This document shows, piece by piece, positions 1 to 44,466 of a stretch of 64,000 nt of DNA. The position numbers and the translations under genes are program-made. The stretch spans positions 62,001 through 126,000 of the forward strand of contig NZ_CANMRA010000007.1 in the NCBI RefSeq assembly GCF_947500125.1, in the 5' to 3' direction. Numbering within the stretch: position 1 is the first letter of the stretch; each line of letters starts with the position of its first letter. Origin of the DNA: an uncultured Kocuria sp. (GTDB lineage Bacteria; Actinomycetota; Actinomycetes; Actinomycetales; Micrococcaceae). Below the pieces are notes generated by a model that was given only the letters and a program-made list of their open reading frames with translations, was not told where the DNA came from and did not search any database.

Positions 1-615
1 GCGCCGGACCACTCGCTCACGGACGCCGTCACCGGTCCCGCCGTCGACGACGCCCTGGTCCTCAAGACGTTCCTCACGGTCCACCCCGCCTCGATCTACG
101 CCTTGTGCACGCCGGCCAACCCGGCCGAGGGCGACCTGATCGGCGCGGCCCAGATCAGTCACCTGCTCGACCAGCTCTCCGGCCAGTTCCAGTACGTCGT
201 CGTCGACACGGCCCCGGGGATGGGCGAGCACGCTCTGGCCGCCCTCGAGGCGGCCACCGACACCGTGTTCGTCACCGGCATGGACGTCCCGGGTGTCCGA
301 GGGCTGCGCAAGGAGCTGGACCTGCTCGGCGAACTGGATCTGGTGCCCGAGAAGGTCACGGTCGTGGTCAACGCCGCCGACCGCAGCACCGGGCTGTCCA
401 TGCAGGACATCGAGGCCACGCTCAGGGCGCCGGTGGACCACGTGGTGCCACGCACACGAATGGCCGCCTACGCCACGAACCGCGGGGAACCCCTGCTGCA
501 GCACGCCCCGAAGGACAAGGCCGCGCGGCAGCTGCGGGCCCTCGTGGACTCGTTCGCCCCCGACCGCCCCGCGCCCCGCCGGGGCATCCACCGGAAGGCT
601 CTGGTCCGCTCATGA
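1..615 (+). CDS. TadZ/CpaE-like ATPase, C-terminal part (5' end outside window)
   Basis: The reading frame is open from base 1, so only the last 204 residues are visible and the N-terminal P-loop is missing. The visible part has a MinD/ParA-like fold signature: a Walker-B-like stretch VVVDTAPG after QFQY, then VVVNAAD, typical of CpaE/TadZ, which places Tad pilus machinery in the cell. Its stop overlaps the tadA start (ATGA at 612-615), and tadB and tadC follow, so it belongs to the Tad operon. Family assignment rests on the fold motifs plus context; the exact subfamily cannot be judged without the N-terminus. Confidence 0.85.
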   Translation, partial: APDHSLTDAVTGPAVDDALVLKTFLTVHPASIYALCTPANPAEGDLIGAAQISHLLDQLSGQFQYVVVDTAPGMGEHALAALEAATDTVFVTGMDVPGVRGLRKELDLLGELDLVPEKVTVVVNAADRSTGLSMQDIEATLRAPVDHVVPRTRMAAYATNRGEPLLQHAPKDKAARQLRALVDSFAPDRPAPRRGIHRKALVRS

Positions 616-2132
616 ACCTCACAGAACGCCTTGCCGCCGCGCGCGGAGAAACGCTCCACGCACCGGCCGAGCCCACCGACGTCCATGTTGCCGATGTACT
701 GCCGTATGACATGGATTCCGTCGAGATCTCCGAGCCCGGACTCCCTGAGGCCTGGGACGATCCGGCGGCCGACGCCTCCGTCTCGGATCTCGAGACACCG
801 GTCTTCTCCGCCGCCGCGCCGGCCGATCCCGCGCCGCGGGTGCAGGCGGGGAAGTTCGATGCGCTCGCCGGGCTCAAGCAGCGCGTCAAGCAGGAGCTGC
901 TCGACCGCATCGGTTCGCGCCAGTCCGACTCCAGCCTCTCCGACAAGCAGATCAAGGACTTCGCGACGAAGGAGCTGACCCGCATCGTCGCCGAGGAGCA
1001 GGTGCCGATGTCCTCCGAGGAGCGGATCCGGTTGATCCGCTCCGTCAGCGACGACGTGCTCGGCTACGGCCCGCTCCAGGTGCTGCTGGACGACGACACC
1101 GTCACCGAGATCATGGTCAACGGACCCGACCAGATCTTCGTGGAGCAGAAGGGGAAGGTCACGCTCGCGGACGCGACGTTCGCCACCGAGCAAGACCTGC
1201 GCCACGTGATCGAGAAGATCGTCACCCAGGTGGGCCGGCGCATCGACGAGTCGTCGCCCCTCGTCGACGCTCGCCTGCCCGACGGCTCGCGTGTCAACGC
1301 GGTGATTCCGCCGCTGGCGGTCAAGGGCTCCTCGCTGACCATCCGGAAGTTCGCCAAGGACCCGTTGACCATCGAGGACCTCATCCGCTTTGGCTCGGTG
1401 TCCCCGCAGATGGCCGACTTGCTCCGTGCCTGCGTGGAGGCGCACCTGAACATCCTGGTCGCGGGCGGAACCGGTACGGGCAAGACCACGATGCTCAACG
1501 TTGTCTCCTCCTTCATCCCGCACGGAGAGCGCATCGTGACGATCGAGGACGCCGTGGAGCTGCAGCTGCAGCAGGAGCACGTGGTCCAGCTCGAGTCCCG
1601 CCCCGCCAACATCGAGGGCAAGGGGGAGATCTCGATCCGGGACCTCCTGAAGAACTCGCTGCGCATGCGGCCCGACCGGATCGTGGTGGGGGAGTGCCGT
1701 GGGGGCGAGGCCTTGGACATGCTCCAGGCCATGAACACCGGCCACGACGGATCCCTGTCCACCATCCACGCCAACTCTCCGCGCGACACCATCTCGCGGC
1801 TCGAGACCCTGGTCATGATGGCCGGCATGGACCTGCCGCAGCGGGCCATCCGGGAGCAGATCGCCTCGGCCATCCACCTGGTGGTACAGCTCTCCCGTCT
1901 CCGGGACGGTACCCGTCGCGTCACCCACATCACCGAGATCCAGGGCATGGAGGGAGAGACCGTGACGCTGCAGGACGCCTTTCTCTTCGACTGGGACGCG
2001 GGGGTGGATCCCCGCACGGGAAGGTTCCGCGGCACGACACGCTCCACCGGGGTGCGCCCGCGGTTCGTGGACAAGTTCGAGGACTACGGCATCAAGCTCC
2101 ACCCCTCCGTGTTCGACCCGGGGAGGCGCTGA
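612..2132 (+). CDS. tadA: TadA/CpaF secretion ATPase (Tad locus 1)
   Basis: Cytoplasmic hexameric ATPase that powers Tad pilus assembly or secretion. The 506-residue protein has an acidic, low-complexity first ~75 residues, then the CpaF core. Walker A is GGTGTGKTTM near residue 285. The Asp box IEDAVEL, the Walker B region RPDRIVVGECRGGEA and the His box STIHANS follow in the usual order. I chose the ATG at 612 because it overlaps the upstream stop; a longer open frame upstream is antisense-like shadow of tadZ. It overlaps tadB by TGATG at 2130-2134, suggesting translational coupling. It differs from the shorter TadA at 43261, which lacks the long acidic N-terminus. Confidence 0.95.
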   Translation: MNLTERLAAARGETLHAPAEPTDVHVADVLPYDMDSVEISEPGLPEAWDDPAADASVSDLETPVFSAAAPADPAPRVQAGKFDALAGLKQRVKQELLDRIGSRQSDSSLSDKQIKDFATKELTRIVAEEQVPMSSEERIRLIRSVSDDVLGYGPLQVLLDDDTVTEIMVNGPDQIFVEQKGKVTLADATFATEQDLRHVIEKIVTQVGRRIDESSPLVDARLPDGSRVNAVIPPLAVKGSSLTIRKFAKDPLTIEDLIRFGSVSPQMADLLRACVEAHLNILVAGGTGTGKTTMLNVVSSFIPHGERIVTIEDAVELQLQQEHVVQLESRPANIEGKGEISIRDLLKNSLRMRPDRIVVGECRGGEALDMLQAMNTGHDGSLSTIHANSPRDTISRLETLVMMAGMDLPQRAIREQIASAIHLVVQLSRLRDGTRRVTHITEIQGMEGETVTLQDAFLFDWDAGVDPRTGRFRGTTRSTGVRPRFVDKFEDYGIKLHPSVFDPGRR

Positions 2133-3079
2133 TGGCCCCGTTGCTGATCGGCATCGGTCTGATCATCCTGGCCGGCCTGCTCGGACTGTTCGTCGTCTTC
2201 CGCTCCCGGACCCCGCGTCTGCCCATGGACCGGCGGCGGCTCCCGCGCACGGCACAGGAGCAGAGCTCGTCCCAGCTGTCCCGGCTCAGCGGTGTGACCA
2301 CCGAGGCGATCAGTGAGTTCCTGGAGCAGCGCGGGTGGACCCGGCGTGTGGCCGCGGCGCTCGAGAACGCGGGCATCAAGTCTTCACCGGCGGACTTTCT
2401 GGTGCTGGTGGCCGTGGGCGCCGTCGTGGCCGCTGCAGTGGGCACCATCGTCGGCGGCGTTCTGCTGGGACTGCTGTTCCTCCTCGCCGCACCTGTGGTG
2501 GCCAAGGTTGCCGTCGGCTTCCTCACCGGCCGGCGCAAACGGATCTTCGCCGATCAGCTGGACAACACGCTCCAGTTGTTCTCCGGGTCCCTGCGGGCCG
2601 GGCACTCTCTGCTGCGCGCCGTCGACGCGGTGTCGAAGGAGTCTCCGGCGCCGACCTCCGAGGAGCTCACCCGGGTGGTCAACGAGACCCGGCTCGGCAT
2701 GGACCTCGACGACTCCCTGAACCAAGCGGCCCAGCGGATGGAGTCCCAGGACTTCTCCTGGGTGGCCCAGGCCATCGGCATCCACCGCGAGGTCGGCGGA
2801 GACCTCTCCGAGGTGCTCGACCGCGTGGCGGGCACCATTCGCGAGCGCAATCAGATCCGGCGGCAGGTGAAGACGTTGTCGGCCGAGGGGAAAATGTCCG
2901 CCTACATCCTGATGGCCCTGCCGGTGCTGATCGCGGTAGTGCTCGCCGTGATCTCCCCTGAGTACATCTTCCAGTTCGTCACGAGCGGCATCCTCGGGTA
3001 CGCGATGATCGTTGCCGCGCTGCTGATGTTCGCCATCGGCGGGTTCTGGATGTCCCGCATCGTCAAGATCAAGTTCTGA
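2132..3079 (+). CDS. tadB: TadB inner-membrane platform protein (Tad locus 1)
   Basis: Type II secretion F-domain protein that forms the membrane platform with TadC. It has 315 residues, with a hydrophobic N-terminal helix (about 3-22), a double helix around 88-125, the cytoplasmic T2SF domain at roughly 140-265 containing RAGHSLLRAVDAV and an IHREVGGDLSEVLDRVA stretch, and two C-terminal helices. These are the expected topology and motifs. The start ATG at 2132 is inside the tadA stop. TadC follows after 31 bases with its own AAGGG ribosome site. Confidence 0.93.
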   Translation: MAPLLIGIGLIILAGLLGLFVVFRSRTPRLPMDRRRLPRTAQEQSSSQLSRLSGVTTEAISEFLEQRGWTRRVAAALENAGIKSSPADFLVLVAVGAVVAAAVGTIVGGVLLGLLFLLAAPVVAKVAVGFLTGRRKRIFADQLDNTLQLFSGSLRAGHSLLRAVDAVSKESPAPTSEELTRVVNETRLGMDLDDSLNQAAQRMESQDFSWVAQAIGIHREVGGDLSEVLDRVAGTIRERNQIRRQVKTLSAEGKMSAYILMALPVLIAVVLAVISPEYIFQFVTSGILGYAMIVAALLMFAIGGFWMSRIVKIKF

Positions 3080-3110
3080 GTTCCGCCACCCGCTTTCCGA
3101 AGGGCGTCCC

Positions 3111-3986
3111 ATGTCGTCGATCTCCCCCTTGTTCGGTCTCGTGCTCATCACCGCTGCCGCCGCCATGGCCATCTGGCTCACCGTCGGCGTGCGCTGGGGC
3201 GGCGACCGGCTGGTGCGCCAGAACCTGCGAGGGGGCCTCGGTGCGACCGAGGCCGAGAAGGTCCGGGACGCCCCGGACTTCGGCTGGGCGCGTCAGTTCA
3301 CCACCGGCAACGGGCGGGAGCGGCTCGAGAATCTGTATTCGAAAGCCGGCAGGCCCGCCGACTGGCCCGTAGTGCGGCTCATGGCCTACAAGGTCTACGC
3401 TCTGGCGGGCGCCGGACTCCTCGGGATGCTGTTCCTGCTCCTGACCAACGGGAACGGCATGATCGTTCTGATGGTCGCGGTCATGGTGCCGGTGTCCTAT
3501 TTCGTGCCGGAGCTGCTCCTGTACTCCCGCGGCACCGAGCGGCAGAAGGCGATCGGCCTCGAGCTCGCCGACACGCTGGACCAGATGATGATCGCGGTGG
3601 AAGCCGGTCTGGGCTTCGAATCGGCGATGGCCCGTGCCGGGCACAATGGCAAGGGTCCGCTCGCGGAGGAACTGGTGCGCACGCTGCAGGAGATGCGTGT
3701 GGGCATTCCGCGCCGGGACGCCTACCTGGCGCTGGAGCAGCGCACCGACGTCCCCGATCTGCGGACGTTCACCCGGTCGGTCATCCAGGCCGACGCGTAC
3801 GGCATCTCCATCTCCACGGTGCTGCGCACGCAGGCCAATGAGATGCGCGTCAAGCGCCGACAGCGGGCCGAAGAGGCAGCGCAGAAGATCCCCACCAAGA
3901 TCCTGATCCCGCTGATGCTGTTCGTGCTGCCGGTGCTGTTCCTGACCGTCCTGGGGCCTGTCGTCCTCAACGTCCTGAAGATGTAG
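3111..3986 (+). CDS. tadC: TadC inner-membrane platform protein (Tad locus 1)
   Basis: Second T2SF-domain platform protein, 291 residues, partner of TadB. It has an N-terminal helix (about 5-25), a central helical pair around 90-135, a T2SF domain with LADTLDQMMIAVEAGLGFE and a highly typical TFTRSVIQADAYGISIS segment, and a C-terminal helix ending at the stop. AAGGG lies about 7 bases before the ATG. The sortase gene begins only four bases after the stop, so the sortase is probably read from the same transcript. Confidence 0.93.
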   Translation: MSSISPLFGLVLITAAAAMAIWLTVGVRWGGDRLVRQNLRGGLGATEAEKVRDAPDFGWARQFTTGNGRERLENLYSKAGRPADWPVVRLMAYKVYALAGAGLLGMLFLLLTNGNGMIVLMVAVMVPVSYFVPELLLYSRGTERQKAIGLELADTLDQMMIAVEAGLGFESAMARAGHNGKGPLAEELVRTLQEMRVGIPRRDAYLALEQRTDVPDLRTFTRSVIQADAYGISISTVLRTQANEMRVKRRQRAEEAAQKIPTKILIPLMLFVLPVLFLTVLGPVVLNVLKM

Positions 3987-3990
3987 CCCA

Positions 3991-4761
3991 ATGTCACGCC
4001 TCGATTCGTCCACCGCTCCGGTGAGAGCCGGTGCTCGGCGCACTGTGCTGTCAGTCATCCTTGCCGCGGTGTCCTTCACCGCGCTGGGCTGGCTGGCGGT
4101 GCCCTGGTTGACCGGCGCCCCGGCCGCCGGCCTCGGCGGGGACGTCCAGCACAGTGATCCCGCCTCGGTAAGCGCCCCCGGTCCGGTGAGCACCTCTTCA
4201 CTCCCTGCGGGTGACGCCCGGGCGGCCGGTGACCCCGGGGCGCACCCCGAGGTGCGAGGCCCGGAGACCTGCGGCGACCTTTCCACCCGGGCCCGGGTCT
4301 GCTCCCCGTCCATCGGCATTGACGCGGCGCTCGAATCCATGGGGACGGACGGGGCCGGGAACATGGCGGTGCCCACGCACGAGGACCGCGCGGCGATCGG
4401 CTGGTACTCGGCCTCCGCCCCGATCGGCGGCGAGCAGGGCAATGCGGTGCTGGCCGGCCACGTGGACTACCCCTACGATGCACCCGTTCTGGCCACGCTC
4501 TACACGGCACAACCCGGGCAGAGGCTGTGGGTCTCCGACGGGACCGGGGGAGTGTTCTCCTACACCGTGACCACCGTGCGGGAGCCGACCCCGCGGGACG
4601 CCCCGCCGAAAGACATCTTCGAGCTGACCGGGGATCCCGGGCTGTCCCTGGTCACCTGCTCCGGCGACTACGTCCAGCCGGACGGCTCCCCGTCCTGGTC
4701 GTACACGAACAACCTCATCGTCGATCTGGCCCTCGATCCCGAGACCGTCCCCGTCCTGTGA
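3991..4761 (+). CDS. Sortase (class E/F-like), linked to Tad locus 1
   Basis: Membrane-anchored transpeptidase that joins sorting-signal proteins to the cell wall. The 256 residues comprise one N-terminal helix (about 13-37), a Pro/Gly/Ala-rich linker to ~105, and the sortase barrel. The catalytic His is H157 in AGHVDY and the catalytic Cys is C223 in LVTCSG. The third residue is odd: where class E/F enzymes usually carry Arg just before an (N/D)N-V-V strand, this protein reads SYTNNLIV, with T239 in that place. The gene starts 4 bases after tadC with no good ribosome site, which suggests coupling. The next gene encodes a protein with a matching C-terminal sorting signal. Fold is sure; the subclass is not. 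Confidence 0.88.
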   Translation: MSRLDSSTAPVRAGARRTVLSVILAAVSFTALGWLAVPWLTGAPAAGLGGDVQHSDPASVSAPGPVSTSSLPAGDARAAGDPGAHPEVRGPETCGDLSTRARVCSPSIGIDAALESMGTDGAGNMAVPTHEDRAAIGWYSASAPIGGEQGNAVLAGHVDYPYDAPVLATLYTAQPGQRLWVSDGTGGVFSYTVTTVREPTPRDAPPKDIFELTGDPGLSLVTCSGDYVQPDGSPSWSYTNNLIVDLALDPETVPVL

Positions 4762-4916
4762 CGCCGCCTCCGAGCCGTCCGTCCCCTCTTGTGCGCACAT
4801 CGGGCGTCGCACGGCGTCTTCTCCGGACAGCACGCCCTCCATGCAATTACATTAGTAAAGATCGGTCGGCCGCCCACCGGCCTGCCGGTCCCCAAACGAT
4901 CCTTCCAGGAGTCCCC

Positions 4917-6371
4917 ATGCCCTCCCCCCTTCCCGCCCGACGCGCGCAGTTCCTCGCGGTGGCGGCTCTCGCCGGCACGACGGCGGTGACCGGAACGCTG
5001 GTCGGCGCGACCCCGGCCGCAGCCGTTCCCGTGGCGATCGAGGAGTACCTGGCTGAGGTCCCGGAGGGAAACCCGAGCACCGGCGCGGCGTCATTCTTCG
5101 TCCCGGTGCAGCTCACCAACGAGGACACCGCCTACGGCGTCCACGAGGACCAGCCCCTGGCCCCGGTCGGGGAGTTCGTGCTCGACGACGACGGCTACGC
5201 GGTGGCCGAGCCCTTCGACGACCCGGCGACGGGGTGGGAGAACGTCGTGGGCGAGAAGGTCGGCGAGACCCCGGTCTACTGGGAGCCCGAGAACGCCGCC
5301 CTGGCCGGCTACATCCTTTCGGTCTTCGGGCCCACCGAGAGCCCGGACGAGGCGCTGGCCGTGCACTGGGCCGTGCGCTCCCTCTCGACCGCGGGGGTTC
5401 CGGAGCAGGAACCGGCCGGGATCGAGCAGTCGCACCTCGAGCGCGCCGAGTTCCTGATCCAGGACGCCCGCCAGAACGTCCCGGCCCTCCTCCCGCAGGA
5501 CAGCTACCGGATCTCCGTGTCCTTCGAGCCGGACGGCCGGCCCGACACGCTGCTCGTCACGATGCCGGAGGCGTACCACGCCACGACCGTGACCCTCTCG
5601 GGTCCCGTCACCTTCGCGGACGGGACGACGACGCAGACCTTCACGGGCGGGGAGCATGACAAGTACCTGGAACTGGCCGTGCCCGCAGGAGTCACCGAGG
5701 GTGAGCTCACCGCTGACCTGACGGCAACGATGCCCTCGACGGAGCTCACCGTCCTCGCCGACGAGCAGTACCGCGACCTGCTCATCGCCGGCCAGGAGCG
5801 CACGGTCGACTGGGGGGCGAGTGCCGGTTTCGAGATCGTCGCACCGACCGTGCCGGACGAGGAGGTTCCCGACGAGGAGACCCCGAGTCCGGCCGACGAC
5901 GGGGTCGACGACGGGTCCGACGACACACCGGTCGACCAGGACACACCCACCGACAACGACACCGATACCGACAACGATCAGAACGGCGACCTCGGCACGG
6001 ACGCTGGCTCCGGCGACGGCGCGGCCGGGCCGGACACCGAGCAGGTGGTCCGGGACCGAGACCCCGGTGTCCTCGAGATCGTGACCGACGACGTCGCCGA
6101 GCAGAAGCTCACGGCGACCCTCGAGGCCTTCGTCCTGTTCGAGGAGCAGACCACCACCTCCACGGAGGTCGTCACCGAGACCACCATGACGGGCGGGGGA
6201 GCCGCGTACGCGGATGCGGCCATGGCGAACACCGGCATGGGTGCAGCCCCTGCGGCCGGTGGGCGCAGTGCAATCACTTCGGTGGTCCTCGCCGTGGTGG
6301 CCATCGGTGCCGGTCTCGGTGCCTGGTTGCTGCGCCGCCGCCCGTCCGTCGCTCCGGACCGGTCCGCCTGA
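4917..6371 (+). CDS. Sortase-anchored surface protein with MANTG sorting signal
   Basis: A 484-residue exported protein. It has a signal peptide (RR near residue 8, hydrophobic core to ~30, cleavage near 36 after AAA), a folded region to about residue 305, and an Asp/Thr-rich linker around 310-365. A second small region and a Thr cluster precede a sorting signal: M436-A-N-T-G440, a hydrophobic helix, then RRR. MANTG resembles the LAxTG type used by actinobacterial class E sortases. The middle segment around residues 120-185 (Ala-rich helices with AVHWAVRSL) recalls thioester-domain surface proteins, but I see no convincing thioester motif. The leader at 4841-4860 is strikingly AT-rich for this genome and may hold a promoter. 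Function unknown; adhesin or pilus partner is inference. Confidence 0.85.
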   Translation: MPSPLPARRAQFLAVAALAGTTAVTGTLVGATPAAAVPVAIEEYLAEVPEGNPSTGAASFFVPVQLTNEDTAYGVHEDQPLAPVGEFVLDDDGYAVAEPFDDPATGWENVVGEKVGETPVYWEPENAALAGYILSVFGPTESPDEALAVHWAVRSLSTAGVPEQEPAGIEQSHLERAEFLIQDARQNVPALLPQDSYRISVSFEPDGRPDTLLVTMPEAYHATTVTLSGPVTFADGTTTQTFTGGEHDKYLELAVPAGVTEGELTADLTATMPSTELTVLADEQYRDLLIAGQERTVDWGASAGFEIVAPTVPDEEVPDEETPSPADDGVDDGSDDTPVDQDTPTDNDTDTDNDQNGDLGTDAGSGDGAAGPDTEQVVRDRDPGVLEIVTDDVAEQKLTATLEAFVLFEEQTTTSTEVVTETTMTGGGAAYADAAMANTGMGAAPAAGGRSAITSVVLAVVAIGAGLGAWLLRRRPSVAPDRSA

Positions 6372-6406
6372 TGCACACCTCCGTCTCAGCTCTCCGGGAG
6401 ATCTCG

Positions 6407-7093
6407 ATGATCCGCACCACTCGTACCGTCGTCGTCGCGTCCCTCGCGCTCGCCGCCCTCACCGGCTGCGGCGGTGCCGCCGCCGAGGCGCGGGGGGCGC
6501 ACACCTACGAACCCCTGCCGCCGCTCAGTACGGCGACGCCGACCCAGAGCCCGGCGCCGCAGCCCACCTCGCCGGCGGCACCCACGTCCTCGCCCGCTCC
6601 GTCTGCCGAGGCGGCCGAGGCTTCTGCCGGCTCGGCCGCCGGAGCCGGTCAGCCGGCCCAGGTCGCGGCGCCGGTCGGCGGCACCGTGGGCACGAGCGTG
6701 CCCGGACAGGCCCCCGCCGTCGGACAGGCACCGGCCGCCGTCGCGGGACCGGTCAGCGGCGGTGCTCCGATCCAGGCCATGGAACGGACGTCGACCAGCA
6801 CCACGACGACCACGTCGACGACGCTCCAGGCCGGTCTCAAACTCGTGGTCACCTGCGAGGGGCTGTGCATGTTGGACGACCTCGCCGCGCCGGAACTGGC
6901 CGGGCAGGACGGACCGTTCTCTGAGGACCTTCTGCGCCAGGCGCTCGAGGAAGAGCTGAGCGGGCAGGGCGGGGATCAGCTGCGGCTCACCGACGAGCTG
7001 GTCGAGCAGCTCATGCAGGGGCAGTGGGACCTGGCCGAGCGGGATCTCGAGGGCGGGGACGAGAAGCTGGTCTTCTCCTCGGCCCGTAAGTAG
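6407..7093 (+). CDS. Thr/Pro/Ala-rich lipoprotein of unknown function
   Basis: The ATG at 6407 has GGGAG six bases upstream and gives a clean lipoprotein signal peptide ending in the lipobox LTGC with C21, so I prefer it to the ATG at 6371 that overlaps the previous stop. After the Cys comes a Pro/Ala/Ser/Thr linker (about 30-120) and a run of Ser/Thr (STSTTTTTSTT). A short folded C-terminal region of ~85 residues carries a lone Cys pair (CEGLC). The Thr run resembles one near the end of the neighbouring surface protein, hinting that the two act at the same place on the cell surface. No domain recognised. Confidence 0.75.
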   Translation: MIRTTRTVVVASLALAALTGCGGAAAEARGAHTYEPLPPLSTATPTQSPAPQPTSPAAPTSSPAPSAEAAEASAGSAAGAGQPAQVAAPVGGTVGTSVPGQAPAVGQAPAAVAGPVSGGAPIQAMERTSTSTTTTTSTTLQAGLKLVVTCEGLCMLDDLAAPELAGQDGPFSEDLLRQALEEELSGQGGDQLRLTDELVEQLMQGQWDLAERDLEGGDEKLVFSSARK

Positions 7094-7229
7094 GACCGCT
7101 GCGGCCGGACCACGGGCCGTCACATATCGCCACCGCCGCCCTGGCTGGGCGTAGCGGGTCGCTGTCCGGACGTCGATCGCTGTGGGACGAGCAGACCCGT
7201 TGCTTCCCACCCATCCAAGGAGAGCCCCC

Positions 7230-7550
7230 GTGAGTGCTGTGCCCGGGCGTGATCCCACGGCCGCTGGTGCTCCAGCATCCCATGCGGAGGAGGCCCCGCA
7301 GAGATCTGAGGAAATCCTGCTCCTGGGGCACCACCCAGGGGAGGGCGCGCCGGAACCGCCACGGTGCCTTGGTGAACCGGTCGAAGATTCCGTCCTCCTT
7401 CCGGGCCACCCCCACGTCGTCACCGCTCGTCAGAAGCCGGCTCGCTGGACTGGCCAGGCGGGCGACATCGAGACGCGGCTTCTGGGGCCCGAGGACGCCG
7501 AGTGCAGCGGCCGGTTCCACCAGCCATTGTCACTGGAGCGCACCCAGTGA
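7230..7550 (+). CDS. Hypothetical protein, 106 residues
   Basis: A GTG start at 7230 sits behind AAGGAGAG (7218-7225), a good ribosome site, and the frame ends in a GTGA overlap with the membrane-protein gene that follows. The product is soluble, rich in Pro, Gly, His and Glu, with no recognised domain. The good ribosome site and the coupled downstream gene favour a real gene, but the composition is unusual and it could be a truncated or decaying reading frame beside the IS remnant at 8071-8347. Confidence 0.45.
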   Translation: MSAVPGRDPTAAGAPASHAEEAPQRSEEILLLGHHPGEGAPEPPRCLGEPVEDSVLLPGHPHVVTARQKPARWTGQAGDIETRLLGPEDAECSGRFHQPLSLERTQ

Positions 7551-8017
7551 GCGGCTCACGCCGGCGGCAGGTGCAGCGGGTCGCGGTTCGTGCACTGGCA
7601 CTGATTGTTGTGTTCGCAGTGGCCTACGCAGTGGCCTACGCGGTGGCCGTGGCTTCCGAGTTCGCGACGTCCCTGCCCCTCGACCCCGCGTACTCGCCGC
7701 TGTTGGTTGGCGTCGGCGCGGCCGCAGCGCTGACCTGTGGGTGGGCCTCTGCGGATGGACGGCGGCCGGACTCGGTCCCGCGCCCGGTGCAGCTGTGGGC
7801 CGCTGCGTCCTTGGTGTCCGCGTTGGTGGTGACTGCCCTGGTGTCTGCGCTGTGGATCTTCCTCGCGGCGGCGATGGGCGGGTCGGTGGTTGCCGGGGAG
7901 CTCCCCTGGATCATCGCGGCCGCATGGGTGGCTGCCGTCCTGGCCGCCGGGGTGGGCACGGCGGTGGCCGCTGCGGTCGTGCGCGCCGCACGGATGCGGT
8001 CCTCCAGGCGTCGCTGA
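7547..8017 (+). CDS. Small four-helix membrane protein
   Basis: A 156-residue protein starting at GTG 7547, overlapping the previous stop by GTGA. It has four predicted hydrophobic helices (about residues 13-35, 47-63, 82-107 and 118-142), a basic start (SGSRRRQVQR) and a basic end (RRR). Its hydrophobic pattern suggests an integral membrane protein. No family recognised. The last codons lie within the left arm of the perfect hairpin at 8003-8030. Confidence 0.6.
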   Translation: MSGSRRRQVQRVAVRALALIVVFAVAYAVAYAVAVASEFATSLPLDPAYSPLLVGVGAAAALTCGWASADGRRPDSVPRPVQLWAAASLVSALVVTALVSALWIFLAAAMGGSVVAGELPWIIAAAWVAAVLAAGVGTAVAAAVVRAARMRSSRRR

Positions 8018-8030
8018 GGCGACGCCTGGA
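8003..8030 (+). terminator. Perfect 12-bp hairpin overlapping stop codon
   Basis: Arms TCCAGGCGTCGC and GCGACGCCTGGA are exact reverse complements with a 4-base loop (TGAG) that contains the stop codon of the upstream gene. There is no T tract. It may end transcription from the left, or be a remnant of a mobile-element end, since transposase debris follows at once. Confidence 0.6.
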
Positions 8031-8070
8031 TTCCCGGACGGCTCCGCGCACATGGTGTCCATGACGGACG

Positions 8071-8347
8071 CCACCGGACGCGGAGCCACTTGTGGGAGTG
8101 CCACCAGGCGATGACGCGTTCGACCACCCAGCTGTGCTGACCGAGTCCAGAACCGTGAACGAGCAGTCCGCGGGGCAATCGGTTCCAGCCGATGCCGGTC
8201 GCCAGGACGAATACGATCCCGGCCAGGGAGACCCGGTCATCAGCCGGCCTGCGACCGGGGTGGCGTTACCGCCGCGGCGGGTAGGCGGGCTGGCAGCAGC
8301 GGCTCGACTCGCTCTCACCACGAGTCCGGTGCGAGGTCCCCCGTCAT
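8071..8347 (-). pseudogene. Decayed IS5-type transposase with internal deletion
   Basis: Read on the minus strand from the ATG at 8347, family-like pieces appear in order but in a broken frame. First comes MTGDLAPDSW, then an in-frame TGA, then ERVEPLLPARLP, a typical N-terminus. A frame change follows, then RHPGRRPADDRVSLAGIVF and VLATGIGWNRLP, the conserved N-terminal block. This joins directly to VHGSGLGQHSWVVER and IAWWHSHKWLRVRW, the C-terminal block that normally lies some 200 residues further on. So the catalytic middle is deleted, and there is also one nonsense codon and one frameshift. The element is dead. No intact terminal inverted repeats were found. Confidence 0.8.
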
Positions 8348-8416
8348 GCTCGCCAGGGTCGCCAAAGACCGTGGCGGCATTAGGGAGCTACGACCAGCTC
8401 CTTCCGAAGCAACCTC

Positions 8417-8650
8417 CTATGCGGGAACAGCCGCCCAGTGCACGGCGAAGCAGGCCGTGGCGGCCATCGAGTACAGCCAGACAGAGGCCTCGCGGGTCCA
8501 CGGCACCTTCTTGGTCATGGCGGAGCTGATGACGGCGGCGACGACCAGGCCGATGCCCAGCCACAGGGACCACTCCGTGAACAGTTGGAGGGTGGCGCCC
8601 AGCACGCCGGTGCCGGCGTCGTCGAGGACGCGGCCGATGTCGAGATTCAT
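8417..8650 (-). CDS. Small membrane protein, 77 residues
   Basis: The ATG at 8650 is preceded by GGGGGAG at a proper distance. The product MNLDIGRVLDDAGTG... has two hydrophobic helices (about residues 27-46 and 55-73) separated by a basic turn (TKKVPWTR). No family recognised; possible small transporter accessory or holin-like protein, but nothing in the neighbourhood decides. It sits between the IS remnant and the tRNA, in an accessory-looking patch. Confidence 0.6.
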   Translation of the reverse strand: MNLDIGRVLDDAGTGVLGATLQLFTEWSLWLGIGLVVAAVISSAMTKKVPWTREASVWLYSMAATACFAVHWAAVPA

Positions 8651-8788
8651 GAGAACTCCCCCGGAGCGAACGAACGTGACCGGGCGCCCCTCGCGCCCGG
8701 GAGAAGAGCCGTGCAGCACCGGCGGTGGGGGACGGAGGATGAGTTCGTTCCCCGATGCCGGGCGGGTGCGCCCTTCGAGTTCGAGCCT

Positions 8789-8800
8789 AATTCATGAATT
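8789..8800. promoter_or_regulatory. 12-bp palindrome AATTCATGAATT
   Basis: A perfect AT-rich palindrome in otherwise GC-rich DNA, upstream of the small membrane-protein gene on the minus strand (start 8650) and downstream of the tRNA. It could be an operator; no regulator is adjacent. Nothing else is visible in 8651-8873. Confidence 0.3.
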
Positions 8801-8873
8801 TGCGACTGTATTGGTGGAGGGCGTCGCTTCTTGCGGGGACAGTCGGTCGCACGCAGCGCGCCGGCAAGGCACG

Positions 8874-8909
8874 CAGAAGGCCCCGGACCGACTGGTCCGG
8901 GGCCTTCTG
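8874..8909 (-). terminator. tRNA-Pro terminator hairpin
   Basis: A perfect 16-bp stem (CAGAAGGCCCCGGACC with its complement) and 4-base loop lies immediately downstream of the tRNA on its own strand. The stem ends in CTTCTG and lacks a long T tract, as usual in high-GC actinobacteria. Confidence 0.85.
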
Positions 8910-8913
8910 GTGG

Positions 8914-8990
8914 TGGTCGGGATGACAGGATTTGAACCTGCGACCTCGTCGTCCCGAACGACGCGCGCTACCAAGCTGCGCCACATCCCG
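8914..8990 (-). tRNA. tRNA-Pro (anticodon CGG)
   Basis: Seventy-seven bases on the minus strand, with the 3' CCA encoded (8914-8916). The acceptor stem pairs CGGGATG with CATCCCG, the T loop reads GGTTCAAATCC, and the anticodon loop is TTCGGGA within a CGTCG/CGACG stem, giving anticodon CGG. It is followed by its own terminator. Confidence 0.97.
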
Positions 8991-9113
8991 TGAAGCATCC
9001 GGTCTCCGCCGGAAACAACTGCTCCATCATAGCCATCTGGCCGGGCGGGTGGGAAATCGGGCTGTCAGGGCCGTGTCGGACCCCTGGGGTGTCCGCCAAG
9101 TAGTGGACAAAAG

Positions 9114-9131: not shown

Positions 9132-9229
9132 CCCATTTGTGAGCATATGCAAATCCGAGTCATCCCTCGATGACTGTGAACCGCGTCACGGCCGGGCTAC
9201 CTCCCGGCCGCCGCTCACCTGGAGGTTCC

Positions 9230-10819
9230 ATGCCCGTCCGCAAGCCCAGCCATTGGATCACCTCGGCCGCCCTGGCCGGCGCCCTGACCCTCACGGCGAC
9301 CAGTGCCGTCGCGGCCCCCACCCGCGACAACAGCAACAACAACACCACCCACAAGATCACCCAGGCCGTCACGCAGCAGAAGCTCACGCAGCACCTGAAC
9401 GCCTTCCAGTCGATCGCGGAGGCCAACGACGGCAACCGTGCCTCGGGCACCTCCGGCTACCAGGCGAGCGTCGACTACGTCGTCCAGAAGCTGCGCGCCG
9501 CCGGCTACACCCCGGAGGTCCAGGAGTTCACCTTCCCGTACTTCCAGGAGGTCACCCCCGCCACGGTCGCCGCGGACGGCACACAGCTCGCCGCCGAGGA
9601 CGTCGCCGTGATGACCTACTCCGGCACGGGCACCGTCAGCGGCACCGTGCAGGCCGTGGACACCGACGGCACTGCGGGTGCCTCGACCAGCGGCTGCGAG
9701 GCCGAGGACTTCGCGGACTTCGTGCCGGGGAACATCGCCCTGATCCAGCGCGGCGCCTGCTCCTTCGCGGTCAAGGCCGCCAACGCGGAGGCCGCCGGCG
9801 CGAGCGCCGTGCTGATCTTCAACAGCGGGGCGCCCGGCAGCGAGGGACTCCTCGACGGCACCCTCGGCTCCCCGGAGGCGACCACCCTGCCGACGGTGGG
9901 GCTCAGCCACCAGGCCGGCGTGGACCTGCTGGACGCCACGGAGGTCACGGTCGTCACGGACACCGTCTCGGCGACCCGCACCACCTACAACGTCCTCGCC
10001 GAGACCGGCACGGGCGACCCCGAGAACACTGTGGTGGTCGGAGCGCACCTGGACGGCGTGCTCGAGGGCGCCGGCATCAGCGACAACGGCACCGGGTCGG
10101 CGGGCATCCTCGCCATCGCGGAGGCGATGGCCAAGACGAAGACCGAGAACAACGTCCGGTTCGCCTGGTGGGGCGCGGAGGAGCTCGGCCTGCTGGGCGC
10201 CGAGCACTACGTGACCGATCTGCAGGCGAACGACCCCGGCGCGCTCGAGGACATCGCGCTGTACCTGAACTTCGACATGATCGGCTCCCCGAACTACGGG
10301 CGCTTCGTCTACGACGGCGACGCCTCCGCCTTCGACCCGGGCGACACCAACGTCCCGGCGGGCTCGGGCGCGATCGAGGCGGCGTTCCACGAGTACTTCG
10401 CCTCGGCGGGCCTGACCTCCGGCGAGACCGAGTTCAGCGGCCGCAGCGACTACGGGCCCTTCATCGAGGTCGGCGTCCCGTCCGGCGGTCTCTTCACGGG
10501 CGCCGAGGGCGTGAAGACCGAGGAGCAGGCCGTGCTGTTCGGTGGGCAGGCCGGGGTCGCCTACGACTCCTGCTACCACTCGGCATGCGATGACATCACG
10601 AACGTGAACCTCCAGGGCATGGAGGAGATGTCCGACGCCGCCGCGGCCGTCGTCCTGCGCTACGCGATGTCGACCCACGACGTCAACGGCGAGGGCGAGC
10701 CCTACAAGCAGAAGGGCAAGGGCGCTGTCGGCCACCCGCAGGGCAAGGACCGCGGCCACGGCCCGCACTCCGAGCACGGGCGCGGCCACGGGCACGGCCA
10801 CGACAAGGCGGCCGCCTGA
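9230..10819 (+). CDS. Secreted M28 zinc aminopeptidase with PA domain (copy 1)
   Basis: Exported metallopeptidase that removes N-terminal amino acids from peptides. Start ATG 9230 follows GGAGG and gives a signal peptide cleaved near residue 29 (AVAA). A PA domain fills about 125-235, inserted in the N-terminal part; the M28 fold follows. The two-zinc ligands are all visible: H273 (GAHLDG), D285 (SDNGTGSAG), E317-E318 (GAEELG), D349 (NFDMIG) and H450 (CYHSAC). The 529-residue product ends in a tail rich in His, Gly and Lys (about 505-529), not seen in the other copies. It is the first of four related genes; a strong terminator at 10843-10883 separates it from the second. Confidence 0.93.
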   Translation: MPVRKPSHWITSAALAGALTLTATSAVAAPTRDNSNNNTTHKITQAVTQQKLTQHLNAFQSIAEANDGNRASGTSGYQASVDYVVQKLRAAGYTPEVQEFTFPYFQEVTPATVAADGTQLAAEDVAVMTYSGTGTVSGTVQAVDTDGTAGASTSGCEAEDFADFVPGNIALIQRGACSFAVKAANAEAAGASAVLIFNSGAPGSEGLLDGTLGSPEATTLPTVGLSHQAGVDLLDATEVTVVTDTVSATRTTYNVLAETGTGDPENTVVVGAHLDGVLEGAGISDNGTGSAGILAIAEAMAKTKTENNVRFAWWGAEELGLLGAEHYVTDLQANDPGALEDIALYLNFDMIGSPNYGRFVYDGDASAFDPGDTNVPAGSGAIEAAFHEYFASAGLTSGETEFSGRSDYGPFIEVGVPSGGLFTGAEGVKTEEQAVLFGGQAGVAYDSCYHSACDDITNVNLQGMEEMSDAAAAVVLRYAMSTHDVNGEGEPYKQKGKGAVGHPQGKDRGHGPHSEHGRGHGHGHDKAAA

Positions 10820-10842
10820 CGGTCCCTGCGCACGGATGCTCC

Positions 10843-10883
10843 ACGGCCCCGCCCCCGGCAGTTCACGCCGGGGGCGGGGCCGT
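10843..10883 (+). terminator. Intrinsic terminator after M28 copy 1
   Basis: A perfect 17-bp GC-rich stem (ACGGCCCCGCCCCCGGC and its complement) with a 7-base loop, followed by TTCCTCT. It ends the copy 1 transcript, so copy 2 needs its own promoter. Confidence 0.85.
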
Positions 10884-10904
10884 TTCCTCTGCCACAAAGC
10901 GCAC

Positions 10905-11015
10905 GGCCGTTGTGCCGCCGACCGGCAGCTGGGATTCTGTGCACATCGCTCCATCAGCTCGATGAAGCCGCTGTCCTGGTCGAGCCCCCGATCGGCCCCT
11001 GCCCCGGGAGATCCC
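10905..11015 (+). promoter_or_regulatory. Leader of M28 copy 2, duplicated before copy 3
   Basis: This leader and the one at 12690-12806 share GGCC(G/A)TTGTGCC, then AGCTGGGATTCTGTGCACA, then a CTCCA block, CGAGCCCC(C/T)GATCGGCCCC and the ribosome site. The TTGTGC and GATTCT elements are plausible -35 and -10 boxes. The similarity shows that gene and promoter were duplicated together. Confidence 0.55.
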
Positions 11016-12634
11016 ATGCGCCACCGCACCCAACACCACCGGACCGCGGCCGCCGCAGCGGCCCTCACGCTGCCGAGCGCCGGCGCCGAGAGCACCGCTG
11101 CCGAGCGCCCCGACGAGATCAGCCACGACGACGTGAGTCACGACGACGTGACTGCCGCCGCAAGGCCGACCGCGCCGGAGTGGTCGCTGTGACCGCGGCG
11201 GCCGTCCCTCCCGGCAAGGTGCTGGAGCACCTCGAGGTGTTCCAGGCCATCGCGAACGCCAACAACGGCAACCGTGCCTCGGGCACATCGGGCTACCGGG
11301 GCAGCGTGGACTACGTGCTCGGCCGGCTGCGGGCCGCCGGCTACGCCCCGCAGGTCCAGGCGTTCTCCTTCCCCTTCTTCCAAGAGGCGGGTCCGGCCGC
11401 GGTCAGCGCGGGCGGCCGGCAGCTGCCCGCGGAGGACGTCGCGGTCATGACCTACTCCGGCTCCGGCACCGTGACCGCCCCGGTGCAGGCGGTGGGGACG
11501 ACCGGCGAGAAGGCCGCGAGCACCAGCGGCTGTGAGGCCGGGGACTTCGCCGACTTCGTGCCCGGGAACATCGCGCTGCTCCAGCGGGGCACGTGCGCCT
11601 TCGGGGTGAAGGCCGCCAACGCGGCGGCCGCCGGGGCGTCCGCGGTGCTGATCTTCAACACGGGCCTGCCCGGGGAGGAGGGCGCGGTGGCCGGCACCCT
11701 CGGCGCACCGGGTGCCACGACCATCCCGGTGGTCGGCCTCAGCTTCGCCGCCGGCGCGGCGCTGCTGGGCGGGGGCGAGGTGACGGTCAGCACGCAGACC
11801 GTCTCCGAGAGCCGGGAGACCTTCAACGTCCTGGCCGGGACGAGCACGGGGGACCCGGGGCGCACCGTCATGGTGGGCGCGCATCTGGACAGCGTCCCGG
11901 AGGGCGCGGGGATCAACGACAACGCCTCTGGGTCCGCGGGCATCCTGGCCATCGCCGAGGCGCTCGCGGGCACGGAGACCGCCAACGCCCTGCGCTTCGC
12001 CTGGTGGGGCGCCGAGGAGTTCGGCCTGCTCGGGTCCCGCCACTACGTCGCGGACCTGAAGGCCAACGACTCCGCGACGCTGGAGAAGGTCTCGCTGTAC
12101 CTGAACTTCGACATGATCGGCTCCCCGAACCACGGCCGCTTCGTCTACGACGGTGACGCCTCGGCATTCGGCCCGGAGGACGGCTCGGTGCCAGCCCCGG
12201 GCGGATCGGCCGCGATCGAGGCGGCCTTCCACGAGCACTTCGGCTCCGTGGGACTGGCCTCCGGCGAGACCGCGTTCAGCGGCCGCAGCGACTACGGACC
12301 GTTCATCGCCGAGGGCATCGCCTCCGGTGGTCTCTTCACGGGCGCCGAGGGGATCAAGACCGTGGAGCAGGCGGCGCTGTTCGGCGGCCGGGCCGGCGTC
12401 GGCTACGACTTCTGCTACCACGCGCAGTGCGACGACCTCAGCAACATCGACCTCCGGACGCTGGAGGAAATGACCGACGCGGCCTCCGCCGTCGTCCTGC
12501 GCTTCGCGAACTCCACCGTGGACCTCGAGGAGGAGGGCCGGCGGCTGCGCACCGCCGTGGGGCCCATTCCCGCCGCCACGGTCGACCGGGGACACGGCCC
12601 GAGCAACGCCGCCGAGGAGCGGCCGACGCAGTGA
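11016..12634 (+). pseudogene. M28 zinc aminopeptidase copy 2, signal peptide out of frame
   Basis: The start ATG 11016 (GGGAG upstream) matches the starts of copies 1 and 3 and opens a signal-like N-terminus, but that frame stops at 11190-11192. The mature enzyme lies in the next frame and is intact to 12634, with PA domain and all zinc ligands (GAHLDS, NDNASGSAG, GAEEFG, NFDMIG, CYHAQC). A GTG at 11189 overlaps the stop as GTGA, so ribosomes could restart and make a cytoplasmic enzyme of 481 residues without a signal peptide. The lost segment contains a 15-bp direct repeat (11124-11153), a likely slippage region. Either a frameshifted pseudogene, a sequencing error, or a phase-variable gene; I cannot tell which. 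Confidence 0.75.
11124..11153 (+). repeat. 15-bp direct repeat, two copies
   Basis: Units CACGACGACGTGAGT and CACGACGACGTGACT differ at one base and encode SHDDV twice in the signal-peptide frame of M28 copy 2. They lie about 40 bases before the point where that frame stops. Confidence 0.8.
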
Positions 12635-12689
12635 GGAAGTCGCAGTGAGGCAGTCGCGGTGACGGCGTTCCCTTTCCCAAAATCTGTCC

Positions 12690-12806
12690 GGCCATTGTGC
12701 CTCTGACCTGGAGCTGGGATTCTGTGCACAGCACTCCACCTGCTCGGTGGAGGCTTTGACGGACACGGTCGAGCCCCTGATCGGCCCCCGGCCCCCGGGA
12801 GGATCC
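12690..12806 (+). promoter_or_regulatory. Leader of M28 copy 3, duplicate of copy 2 leader
   Basis: Contains the same ordered blocks as 10905-11015, including AGCTGGGATTCTGTGCACA and GATCGGCCCC, and ends in the ribosome site GGGAGGATCC before ATG 12807. No terminator separates copy 2 from this leader, so copy 3 may also be reached by read-through. Confidence 0.55.
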
Positions 12807-14399
12807 ATGCCGCACCGCACACCCAGCCGATGGACCGTGGCCGCCGCCCTGGCCGGCACCCTGGCGTTCTCGGTGCCCGGCGCAATCGCGGCCCCGCCGG
12901 GGGTGGACCCCGGAGCGGTCGCCGCGCCCGCCGCGGCCGTGGCGCCGGAGCAGGTGCTGGAGCACCTCGAGGTGTTCCAGGCCGTCGCCCACGCCAACAA
13001 CGGCAACCGCGCCTCGGGCACGCCCGGCTACCGGGGCAGCGTGGACTACGTGCTCGGCCGGCTGCGGGCCGCCGGCTACGCCCCGCGGGTCCAGGCGTTC
13101 ACCTTCCCGTTCTTCCAGGAGGTCGTCCCGACCGCGGTCGCCGTGCCCGGGCCGGGCGGTGTCCCGCGGACCCTGACCGCCGCGGAGGCGGCCGTCATGG
13201 TCTACTCCGGCTCCGGCACGGTGACCGCCCCGGTGCAGGCCGTGGACACCACCGGCGCCGCGGCGGCGAGCACCAGCGGCTGCGAGGCCGGGGACTTCGC
13301 CGGCTTCACCGCGGGGAGCATCGCGCTGCTCCAGCGCGGCACGTGCACCTTCGGGGTGAAGGCCGCCAACGCGCAGGCCGCGGGGGCGTCCGCCGTGCTG
13401 ATCTTCAACACGGGTCTGCCGGGGGAGGAGGGCGTGGTCGCCGGCACCCTCGGGGAGCCCGGTGCCACGACGCTCCCGGTGGTCGGCCTCAGCCACGCGG
13501 CCGGGACCGCCCTGCTGGGCGGGGGAGAGGTGACCGTGACGGCGCAGACCGTCTCCGAGAACCGCGAGACCGTCAACGTCCTCGCCGAGACGGGCACGGG
13601 CGACCCCGGGAGCACGCTGATGGTCGGTGCCCACCTGGACAGCGTGCTCGAGGGCGCGGGGATCAACGACAACGGCTCCGGCTCCGCGGGGATCCTGGCC
13701 GTCGCCGAGGCGCTCGCGGGCACGGAGACCGCCAACACCGTGCGCTTCGCCTGGTGGGGCGCGGAGGAGTTCGGTCTGCGCGGGTCCCAGCACTACGTCG
13801 CGGATCTGAAGGCCAATGATCCCGGGACGCTGGAGGACATCGGGCTGTACCTGAACTTCGACATGATCGGTTCCCCGAACTACGGGCGCTTCGTCTACGA
13901 CGGCGACCACTCCGCGTTCCCGCCCGTGCAGGGCCCCGAGGGGCTCGTGACGGCCCCGGAGGGCTCCGCCGCGATCGAGGCCGCGTTCCACGAGCACTTC
14001 GGCTCCGTGGGACTGGCCTCCGGCGAGACGGAGTTCAGCGGCCGCAGCGACTACGGCCCGTTCATCGCCGAGGGCATCGCCTCCGGCGGTCTCTTCACGG
14101 GCGCCGAGGGGATCAAGACCGCGGAGCAGGCGGCGCTGTTCGGCGGCCGGGCCGGGGTCGCCTACGACTTCTGCTACCACGGCGCGTGCGACGACCTCGC
14201 CAACGTCGACCCCCGGGGCCTGGCCGAGATGACGGACGCGGCCGCCGCCGTCGTCCTGCGCTTCGCGAACTCCACCCAGGACGTCGACGGCACGGAAGCC
14301 GGCGGGCAGCAGGGAAGCCGGGAGCTCCCGCTCGGCCCGGCCACCGCGGACCAGGGCAACGGCCCGGGCAACGACGCCCAGGAGGTGCCGGCACAGTGA
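12807..14399 (+). CDS. Secreted M28 zinc aminopeptidase with PA domain (copy 3)
   Basis: A 530-residue exported peptidase. The ATG at 12807 follows GGAGG and gives a signal peptide with hydrophobic core AAALAGTLAFSVPGAIAA. The PA domain and M28 catalytic domain follow, with zinc ligands in GAHLDS, NDNGSGSAG, GAEEFG, NFDMIG and CYHGAC. It is closest to copy 2 in sequence, including LEHLEVFQA and the whole PA region, and the pair probably arose by tandem duplication. Compared with copies 1 and 2 it has a few extra residues after the catalytic Asp (around HSAFPPVQGPEG). It lacks the His-rich tail of copy 1. Confidence 0.93.
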   Translation: MPHRTPSRWTVAAALAGTLAFSVPGAIAAPPGVDPGAVAAPAAAVAPEQVLEHLEVFQAVAHANNGNRASGTPGYRGSVDYVLGRLRAAGYAPRVQAFTFPFFQEVVPTAVAVPGPGGVPRTLTAAEAAVMVYSGSGTVTAPVQAVDTTGAAAASTSGCEAGDFAGFTAGSIALLQRGTCTFGVKAANAQAAGASAVLIFNTGLPGEEGVVAGTLGEPGATTLPVVGLSHAAGTALLGGGEVTVTAQTVSENRETVNVLAETGTGDPGSTLMVGAHLDSVLEGAGINDNGSGSAGILAVAEALAGTETANTVRFAWWGAEEFGLRGSQHYVADLKANDPGTLEDIGLYLNFDMIGSPNYGRFVYDGDHSAFPPVQGPEGLVTAPEGSAAIEAAFHEHFGSVGLASGETEFSGRSDYGPFIAEGIASGGLFTGAEGIKTAEQAALFGGRAGVAYDFCYHGACDDLANVDPRGLAEMTDAAAAVVLRFANSTQDVDGTEAGGQQGSRELPLGPATADQGNGPGNDAQEVPAQ

Positions 14400-43264: not shown

Positions 43265-44466
43265 GCGCCGCGCTCCCCGGCCGGCAGCCCGTCCTGCCGG
43301 GCGCCCTGCTGGACGACGTGCGGGACCGGCTGCTGTCCGCCCCCGGGCCGGTCACGGACGCCGACATCGCCGAGGCCGTGCACGCGAGCGGCCGGGTGCT
43401 CGGGGCCGCCGGCACCCTGCGCGCGGTGCAGGCCGTGCGCGCCGAGCTGACCGGCCTCGGCCCCCTCGAGCCGCTGCTGCCGCACCGGGGGCTCACCGAC
43501 GTCTACGTCAACGGGCCCGAGCAGGTGTGGCTCGAGACCGAGTCCGGGGTGCGCCGGGTCCCGTCCCCCTTCGGCACCGACGCCGAGGTGCGCGCCCTGG
43601 CCGTGCGCCTCGTCACCGCCGCGGGACGGCGCCTCGACGCCGCCCACCCGTGCGTGGACGTCCAGACGGCCGCCGGCTACCGGGTGCACGCCGTGCTCCC
43701 GCCGATCTCCACGGGCGGGACCCTGCTCTCCGTCCGCTTCCGCAGCACGAGGACCCTGTCCCTGCCGGACCTCGTGGACGCGGGGACCGTCCACCCCGGC
43801 ACCGCCGAGCTGCTGGTGGGCGCCGTGCGCTCGGGCGCGAACTTCCTGGTCAGCGGCGCCACCGGGGCGGGGAAGACGACCGTCCTCAACGCTCTGCTCT
43901 CCTGCGCCCCGGAGCACGAGCGGATCGTGCTCGTCGAGGACGCCGCCGAGCTGCGGCCCGAGCACCCCCACGTGGTCGGTCTCCAGGCGCGCCACGCCAA
44001 CGCCGAGGGCGCGGGCGGCATCGACCTGGCGGAGCTCGTCCGGCAGGCCCTGCGGATGCGGCCCGACCGGCTCGTGGTGGGGGAGTGCCGCGGCGCCGAG
44101 GTCCGCGAGCTGTTCACGGCCCTGAACACCGGCCACGCCGGGGCGGGCACCGTGCACGCCAATTCTGCCGAGGCAGTCCCCGCCCGGCTCTCGGCGCTCG
44201 GCGCCCTGGCCGGGATGAGCCGGGACGCCGTCACGCTGCAGGCCGCGAGCGCCCTGGACCTGGTCGTCCACGTGGCCCGAGGGGGCGGGCGCCGCGAGGT
44301 GCGGGCCGTGTCCCTGCTCGAGGACCGCGCCGGTGCCCTCGTCGCGGTGCCCGCGGCGGTCCGGGGTCACGACGGAGTGCGTCGTGGTCCCGGCTGGGAC
44401 GGGCTGTGCGCCCTGCTCGACCGCGCGCCCGCCACCGGCGAGGAACCCGCGGGGCGACGGCCGTGA
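43261..44466 (+). CDS. tadA: TadA-like secretion ATPase (Tad locus 2)
   Basis: A 401-residue secretion ATPase of the actinobacterial helicase/secretion-neighbourhood type. Walker A is SGATGAGKTTVLN near residue 200, the Asp box VEDAAELRPEHP, the Walker B region RPDRLVVGECRGAEV and the His box GTVHANS follow. It lacks the acidic N-terminus of the TadA at 612. The GTG start overlaps the previous stop, and the gene overlaps tadB by GTGA. Confidence 0.94.
   Translation: MSAALPGRQPVLPGALLDDVRDRLLSAPGPVTDADIAEAVHASGRVLGAAGTLRAVQAVRAELTGLGPLEPLLPHRGLTDVYVNGPEQVWLETESGVRRVPSPFGTDAEVRALAVRLVTAAGRRLDAAHPCVDVQTAAGYRVHAVLPPISTGGTLLSVRFRSTRTLSLPDLVDAGTVHPGTAELLVGAVRSGANFLVSGATGAGKTTVLNALLSCAPEHERIVLVEDAAELRPEHPHVVGLQARHANAEGAGGIDLAELVRQALRMRPDRLVVGECRGAEVRELFTALNTGHAGAGTVHANSAEAVPARLSALGALAGMSRDAVTLQAASALDLVVHVARGGGRREVRAVSLLEDRAGALVAVPAAVRGHDGVRRGPGWDGLCALLDRAPATGEEPAGRRP

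Follow-up and report, generated by a model that had tools for sequence, protein, structure and literature searches.

In class C sortase-dependent pili the sortase polymerises the pilins, and the genes for the sortase and its substrates adjoin the pilus genes. Micrococcus luteus belongs to the same family as Kocuria. Its tad genes are required for natural transformation, and the word sortase is absent from the accessible text of the paper describing them (PMC4322843). For Cutibacterium acnes, the accessible part of the source describes type II plasmids with an insertion upstream of tad that holds the gene for a PT-repeat protein and, adjacent to it, that for a SrtE-family sortase (PMC5696575). 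Judged by this description, the plasmid tad locus is the closest precedent that we found. How type IV-type fibres pass through the thick Gram-positive wall and are held in it is an open question; in its accessible text a review on monoderm pili only speculates on wall passage or anchoring via PilO, for another class of type IV pili (PMC6916266). Among the matches listed in our literature search, whose coverage does not extend to most subscription journals, there was no paper on a Tad-sortase operon of Kocuria.

Here we analysed a stretch of 64,000 nt (the window), which is part of contig C7 in a 4.3 Mb genome (G000). By similarity this genome appears to belong to the Kocuria rosea group; its sortase is 74% identical to that of a K. 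rosea contig. The window contains the downstream part of a Tad operon, followed by genes for a sortase, a surface protein and a lipoprotein, in the following called the triad (Table 1). The locus combines a pilus and an enzyme that are each of a known type, and their arrangement is unusual and conserved. With M. luteus the locus shares the presence of Tad genes in a Gram-positive actinobacterium, as far as the accessible text on its Tad/Flp pili goes (PMC4322843). As in the C. acnes type II plasmids, genes for a sortase and a surface-exposed protein adjoin the tad locus, but the C. acnes genes lie in the insertion upstream of tad, whereas the Kocuria sortase gene starts 4 nt behind tadC. In addition, Kocuria has the lipoprotein, and its surface protein is of another family, judged by the accessible description of the C. 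acnes protein (PMC5696575). When the C. acnes stretch was compared to tad reference proteins, only TadV matched, and weakly. The C. acnes plasmid AP025555.1 contains a sortase-like stretch at 8616–9032 (L105 12001–12417), for which the PLSDB table has no annotated gene. The locus also differs from class C pili: with the class C (pilus-polymerising) model the Kocuria sortase reached 16.7 bits (cut-off 160), compared to 92.8 bits with the class F model, and the fibre genes are of the Tad type.

Table 1. Positions of the Tad and triad features within the window.
Feature	Position	Strand	Evidence or remark
cpaE/tadZ-like ATPase, 3' part	1..615	+	409-aa continuous frame at L005 13386-14615; gene start upstream of window
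tadA (CpaF) assembly ATPase	612..2132	+	Pfam T2SSE E 2.2e-68
tadB platform protein	2132..3079	+	Pfam T2SSF E 1.2e-22
tadC platform protein	3111..3986	+	Pfam T2SSF E 2.7e-18
class F-type sortase, N-terminal hydrophobic segment	3991..4761	+	Pfam Sortase E 3.5e-12; NCBIfam class F E 1.6e-26
conserved AT-rich element CATGCAATTACATTAGTAAA	4840..4859	+	14 consecutive invariant columns, six loci
surface protein with MANTG sorting signal	4917..6371	+	alignment of four full-length copies; no family match
lipoprotein, Pro/Ala-rich variable linker, conserved Thr cluster	6407..7093	+	lipobox; no family match

The Tad (type IVc pilus) operon is complete and runs on into the sortase gene. The tadA ATPase gene is followed by genes for two consecutive T2SSF platform proteins, which identifies the locus as Tad/type IVc, and a Flp-type prepilin, a TadE pseudopilin and a prepilin peptidase are all present. 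Upstream of the window the contig encodes on one strand, in this order, the prepilin peptidase, the Flp-type prepilin (sequence read as GATAVEYGLLVGLIAVAIILV), TadE, a TadG-like protein, CpaB/RcpC and CpaE. Pfam matches in the operon comprise TadE (PF07811, E 1e-18), Peptidase_A24 (PF01478, E 7.7e-16), Tad (PF13400, E 4.8e-9) and RcpC (PF16976, E 5.9e-12). TadA matched TIGR03819 with E 2.5e-106 and 355.7 bits (cut-off 373), and the matches of the CpaE/TadZ-like product to MinD/CpaE-type models of NCBIfam were all below the cut-off. A first-pass annotation, made from the sequence of the window, had placed Tad pilus genes fused to the triad at 3111..7093. These coordinates hold for tadC and the triad, and the operon starts upstream of the window; the genes are adjacent and separate, not fused. 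Also borne out were the sortase start four bases behind tadC with no ribosome site of its own, and the MANTG-type surface protein and Thr-cluster lipoprotein that follow. Elsewhere in the window, at 43411–44346 (G000:C7:105411-106346), there is another tadA-like gene, which is only distantly similar (41% identity). The scan of window positions 1–9000 for sigma-70-type promoters gave no match, and in the same region one terminator-like site was found compared to 2.3 expected. The only Rfam match at or above the gathering score was a tRNA at 8917–8990.

The gap between tadC and the sortase ATG contains no Shine-Dalgarno sequence, and across six copies of the locus the spacing is 4 nt in five and 1 nt in one. 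Class F was by far the best NCBIfam model for the sortase, although the score stayed below the cut-off of 166 bits. His157, Cys223 and Asn241 are retained. We considered a dead sortase, as the Arg behind the catalytic Cys is absent, and rejected this view: when aligned with 66 other class F-type sequences, all 67 have an Asn at this position, which is normal for the group. Cys was likewise present in 67/67 sequences and His in 66/67 (one gap). Given this conservation of Asn, the enzyme looks intact. A PDB sequence search with a sortase profile returned two distant sortase matches (E 0.005). Class F-type sortases were present in 38 of 72,556 plasmid records, none of them covering more than 80% of the query. 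Three further, distant sortases (29–34% identity) are encoded on other contigs of the same genome; the surface protein could be a substrate of these enzymes as well.

The surface-protein ATG is located 155 nt after the sortase gene and is preceded by AGGAG. The protein starts with a signal peptide and a conserved N-terminal part, after which come an acidic variable linker, a Thr-rich block and a sorting signal. At the C-terminus MANTG is followed by a hydrophobic stretch and RRR, as in LPxTG-like signals, and all four full-length copies retain the signal (MANTG, MANTG, MADTG and TADTG). In an alignment of these copies only 5–10% of the positions in the acidic linker (residues 321–400) are invariant, compared to 60–70% in the Thr-rich block (residues 401–440). 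The wall-anchor models of Pfam and NCBIfam (Gram_pos_anchor, LPXTG_anchor) gave no match at E ≤ 1 with the surface protein of the window and two relatives, and the assignment of the sorting signal is thus based on sequence reading and on conservation in the four full-length copies. Neither the surface protein nor the lipoprotein matched a known family in Pfam or NCBIfam. The structure model of the surface protein was poor (mean pLDDT 41.7); no PDB match to the model reached E 1e-3, a PDB search with the sequence returned nothing meaningful, and no relative was found among the 72,556 plasmid records. Cys residues in the relatives from G058, G196 and G201 prompted us to consider a thioester-domain adhesin. 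This candidate was rejected, since Kocuria has no Cys-Gln pair. Three of the four full-length Kocuria proteins have no Cys, and the one in L075 is at position 3 of the signal peptide. At the place of the presumed partner Gln the window and several copies have His, and L010 and L011 have Gln. Thioester adhesin models of Pfam and NCBIfam did not match the surface protein or its relatives.

The lipoprotein frame is open from 6371, 36 nt ahead of the ATG at 6407, which is most likely the start. The lipobox reads ALAALTGC, its Cys being preceded by a short hydrophobic signal, and the Thr cluster TSTSTTTTTSTT was confirmed. In all four copies the LTGCGGA motif, and with it LTGC, is invariant and the Thr cluster is retained. 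Invariance amounts to 65% at the start of the mature chain (residues 21–40), 10% in the variable linker (61–100) and 55% in the region of the Thr cluster (121–140). Comparisons with relatives gave dN/dS values of 0.25–0.35 for the sortase (four comparisons), 0.34–0.68 for the surface protein and 0.23–0.51 for the lipoprotein (three each). These values show that all three are real genes under purifying selection.

The spacer between the sortase and surface-protein genes contains the element CATGCAATTACATTRGTWAA, and the surrounding spacer is diverging. An 18-nt core of this element occurs once in each of the four triad genomes, always at this place, in a search that tolerated up to 3 mismatches, and is not found in G003 and G005. 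Within the window there was a single match (0.00 expected). An inverted repeat, TTAC-N4-GTAA, is present in five of the six copies. The sigma-70-type scan did not recognise the element. Judged by its conservation and position, 4840..4859 is probably a promoter or operator of the surface protein and lipoprotein genes. With a conserved element and ribosome sites of their own, these two genes may be expressed independently of the pilus genes, and such separate control may count against a strict common dosage.

To see how firmly the triad is linked to the Tad genes, we compared 27 Kocuria genomes. Four of them (G000, G014, G015 and G006) encode a close relative of the sortase (at least 68% identity), and exactly these four also have the surface protein and the lipoprotein. 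In all four the triad immediately follows the tadC gene of a single Tad type. Seven loci in six of the 27 genomes encode a TadA of this type (at least 72% identity), and three of the loci, one in G003 and two in G005, have no triad. The triad is therefore an accessory of this Tad type. Genes for M28 peptidases follow the tad operon in the window, at the G003 locus and at one G005 locus, and these shared neighbours indicate that loci with and without the triad occupy the same chromosomal position. In the window the peptidase genes form a tandem of three at 9170–14399, encoding secreted proteins with PA domains. At the G003 locus (L079 4257–12130) TadV is 91% identical to that of the window and the tad genes behind it only 42–75%, a pattern that would fit a replacement of the pilus cassette at this site.

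In a tree of CpaB, CpaE, TadA, TadB and TadC, a branch with support of 1.000 separated the triad-bearing loci (window, L011, L074, L075 and L076) from the three triad-less loci (L077, L078 and L079) and the outgroup L098. A single gain of the triad at the base of this clade would be the simplest account, and loss in the other loci is possible. Among copies of the three triad genes dS was 0.35–0.72. Gene order, spacing and frames are retained in five copies besides that of G006, as far as the contigs extend; two of these five contigs, L010 and L011, stop inside the surface protein. The two show the same gene order up to their ends, with a sortase identity of 84–85%. They belong to a metagenome-assembled genome labelled Streptomyces and together carry two copies of the Kocuria-type tad-sortase locus; either the label or the binning looks wrong. 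In G006 both tadB and the sortase gene are broken by mobile elements, and the frames of the surface protein and the lipoprotein are open. The elements (L099 2897–4298 and 5931–7420) have 22-nt inverted ends and transposase-like frames, and we take them to be of the IS256-like and ISL3-like families.

The arrangement is rare in the family. We scanned the 4.5–5.2 kb behind tadC at 40 additional family loci (out of 56 non-own tadC matches with E ≤ 3e-64) and found no sortase gene at any of them, in line with the first-pass statement that Tad systems usually do not carry a sortase. A scan of 46 regions, comprising these 40 loci, the window, the three triad-less Kocuria loci, a plasmid locus and G150, yielded a sortase match in the window only. 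When the coordinates of sortase and tadC matches listed for 149 genomes of the family and 396 of the order were compared by eye, apart from the window only G150 had the two genes close to each other, on opposite strands and separated by about 5.2 kb. The G150 sortase gene is preceded by another surface-protein gene, and the scanned G150 slice ends just short of the sortase. The tadC-sortase-substrate triple, for which a wider search had been proposed, is present in four of the 27 Kocuria genomes, the window's included, and no other was found in the family or order among the matches listed. A single-sequence search with the surface protein found relatives in four of the 149 family genomes, the window included. 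The profile search found six of the 396 order genomes, again including the window; G058, itself part of the profile, scored strongly and the other four weakly. G058, a genome from another genus of the family, encodes another class F-type sortase (L080); the gene behind it codes for a protein that is distantly related to the surface protein and has an xAxTG-type tail (AAKTG). Unlike in Kocuria, no tad genes were found near this pair, which demonstrates that such a pairing of sortase and surface protein exists apart from Tad.

These data bear on the link between triad and Tad pilus that the first-pass annotation had proposed, with the reservation that it was inferred from gene order. The link gains from co-inheritance in four of the 27 genomes and from the confinement to one clade of the machinery, and loses from the three loci of the same type without triad and from the distantly related pairing in G058. 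A close sortase and surface protein apart from tad, which would speak for chance, did not occur in the 27 genus genomes. Considering the co-inheritance, and this only, a common task of triad and Tad pilus is likely, not proven; the early reservation still holds, on a basis that now goes beyond gene order.

We give about even chances to the view that this Tad operon has gained a dedicated wall-anchoring module. Besides the co-inheritance and the machinery tree, points in its favour are the 4-nt spacing between tadC and sortase in five of six copies, the purifying selection on the three genes, the sorting signal retained in all full-length copies and the finding of no sortase behind tadC at the 40 other family loci. 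The sortase would cleave the [MT]A[ND]TG signal of the surface protein between its Thr and Gly residues and join the protein to peptidoglycan. The N-terminal part would then stand out from the wall on the long acidic linker, and the lipoprotein, which has a comparable variable linker, would be placed in the membrane. More tentatively, these proteins may constitute a wall-fixed adhesin or a collar where the Tad pilus emerges, and may work with the fibre in wall passage, adhesion or DNA capture. Since the tad genes of M. luteus are needed for natural transformation, according to the accessible text of the source (PMC4322843), both DNA uptake and adhesion are conceivable functions. The loci of the same Tad type without triad and the G058 pairing without Tad count against a dedicated module, and so do the three other sortases of the genome and the negative result with the wall-anchor models. 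The same observations, together with the conserved control element and ribosome sites of the surface protein and lipoprotein genes, would fit a wall-anchored adhesin that works alone and shares only expression and inheritance with the Tad operon. This is possible but on the doubtful side, as the sortase gene directly follows tadC (1–4 nt) in all six copies and the triad was never seen apart from this Tad type in the 27 genomes.

The annotation had also offered the reading that the sortase fixes a Tad fibre or its cap to the wall. Nothing in our data shows this. The place of the sortase directly behind tadC would suit an action on the fibre itself, by which pilins or the base of the pilus would become attached to the wall, but Flp, TadE and the TadG-like protein end without a C-terminal sorting signal, as reading of the operon's protein sequences revealed, and the neighbouring surface protein has one. 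As among the proteins read it alone carries such a signal, the fibre is unlikely to be processed by the sortase, and we regard this alternative as highly improbable. The neighbourhood could also be a matter of chance, kept by recent common descent and devoid of joint function. All copies probably stem from one gain and are not independent events, and the interruption of tadB and the sortase gene in G006 illustrates that the set can be lost. Against this stands the dS of 0.35–0.72, at which order, spacing and frames have nevertheless been held in the five other copies to the extent covered by their contigs; we consider chance improbable.

A more specific form of the dedicated module would be that the class F sortase builds a wall-and-membrane collar by which the pilus is guided or held where it leaves the thick wall, a proposal that we put forward as speculative and rather unlikely. 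The collar would consist of the surface protein, fixed to peptidoglycan, and the lipoprotein, fixed to the membrane; in both proteins a variable linker is combined with a conserved Thr-rich block. If true, this would be a new design of the Tad machine for Gram-positive cells, with the collar taking the place that outer-membrane components have in Gram-negative Tad systems. With so few genes, a Tad operon that brings along a wall-anchoring enzyme, its substrate and a lipoprotein makes the question of wall passage testable, and this in relatives of M. luteus, whose natural transformation needs Tad genes by the accessible account (PMC4322843).

The regions behind tadC hold other genes in the family. 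A TadV-like gene was found there in 15 of the 40 loci, 11 times close behind and on the same strand. In G111 an ice-binding-like protein with an LPSTG tail is encoded behind tadC, and on plasmid pACHL01 of Pseudarthrobacter chlorophenolicus a LGFP-repeat protein starts 106 nt behind it (L107 11288–13375); by motif its N-terminal part looks L,D-transpeptidase-like, which we take as an assumption. Surface-type genes may thus have been added behind tadC repeatedly in this family, a lead and not a result. In G058 (L080 10973–15266) the class F-type sortase is accompanied by two putative substrates with the tails AAKTG and LAKTG. Genes around the pair that read as ParA-like, SSB-like and large helicase/methylase-like by their sequences suggest a mobile element of plasmid- or ICE-like type.
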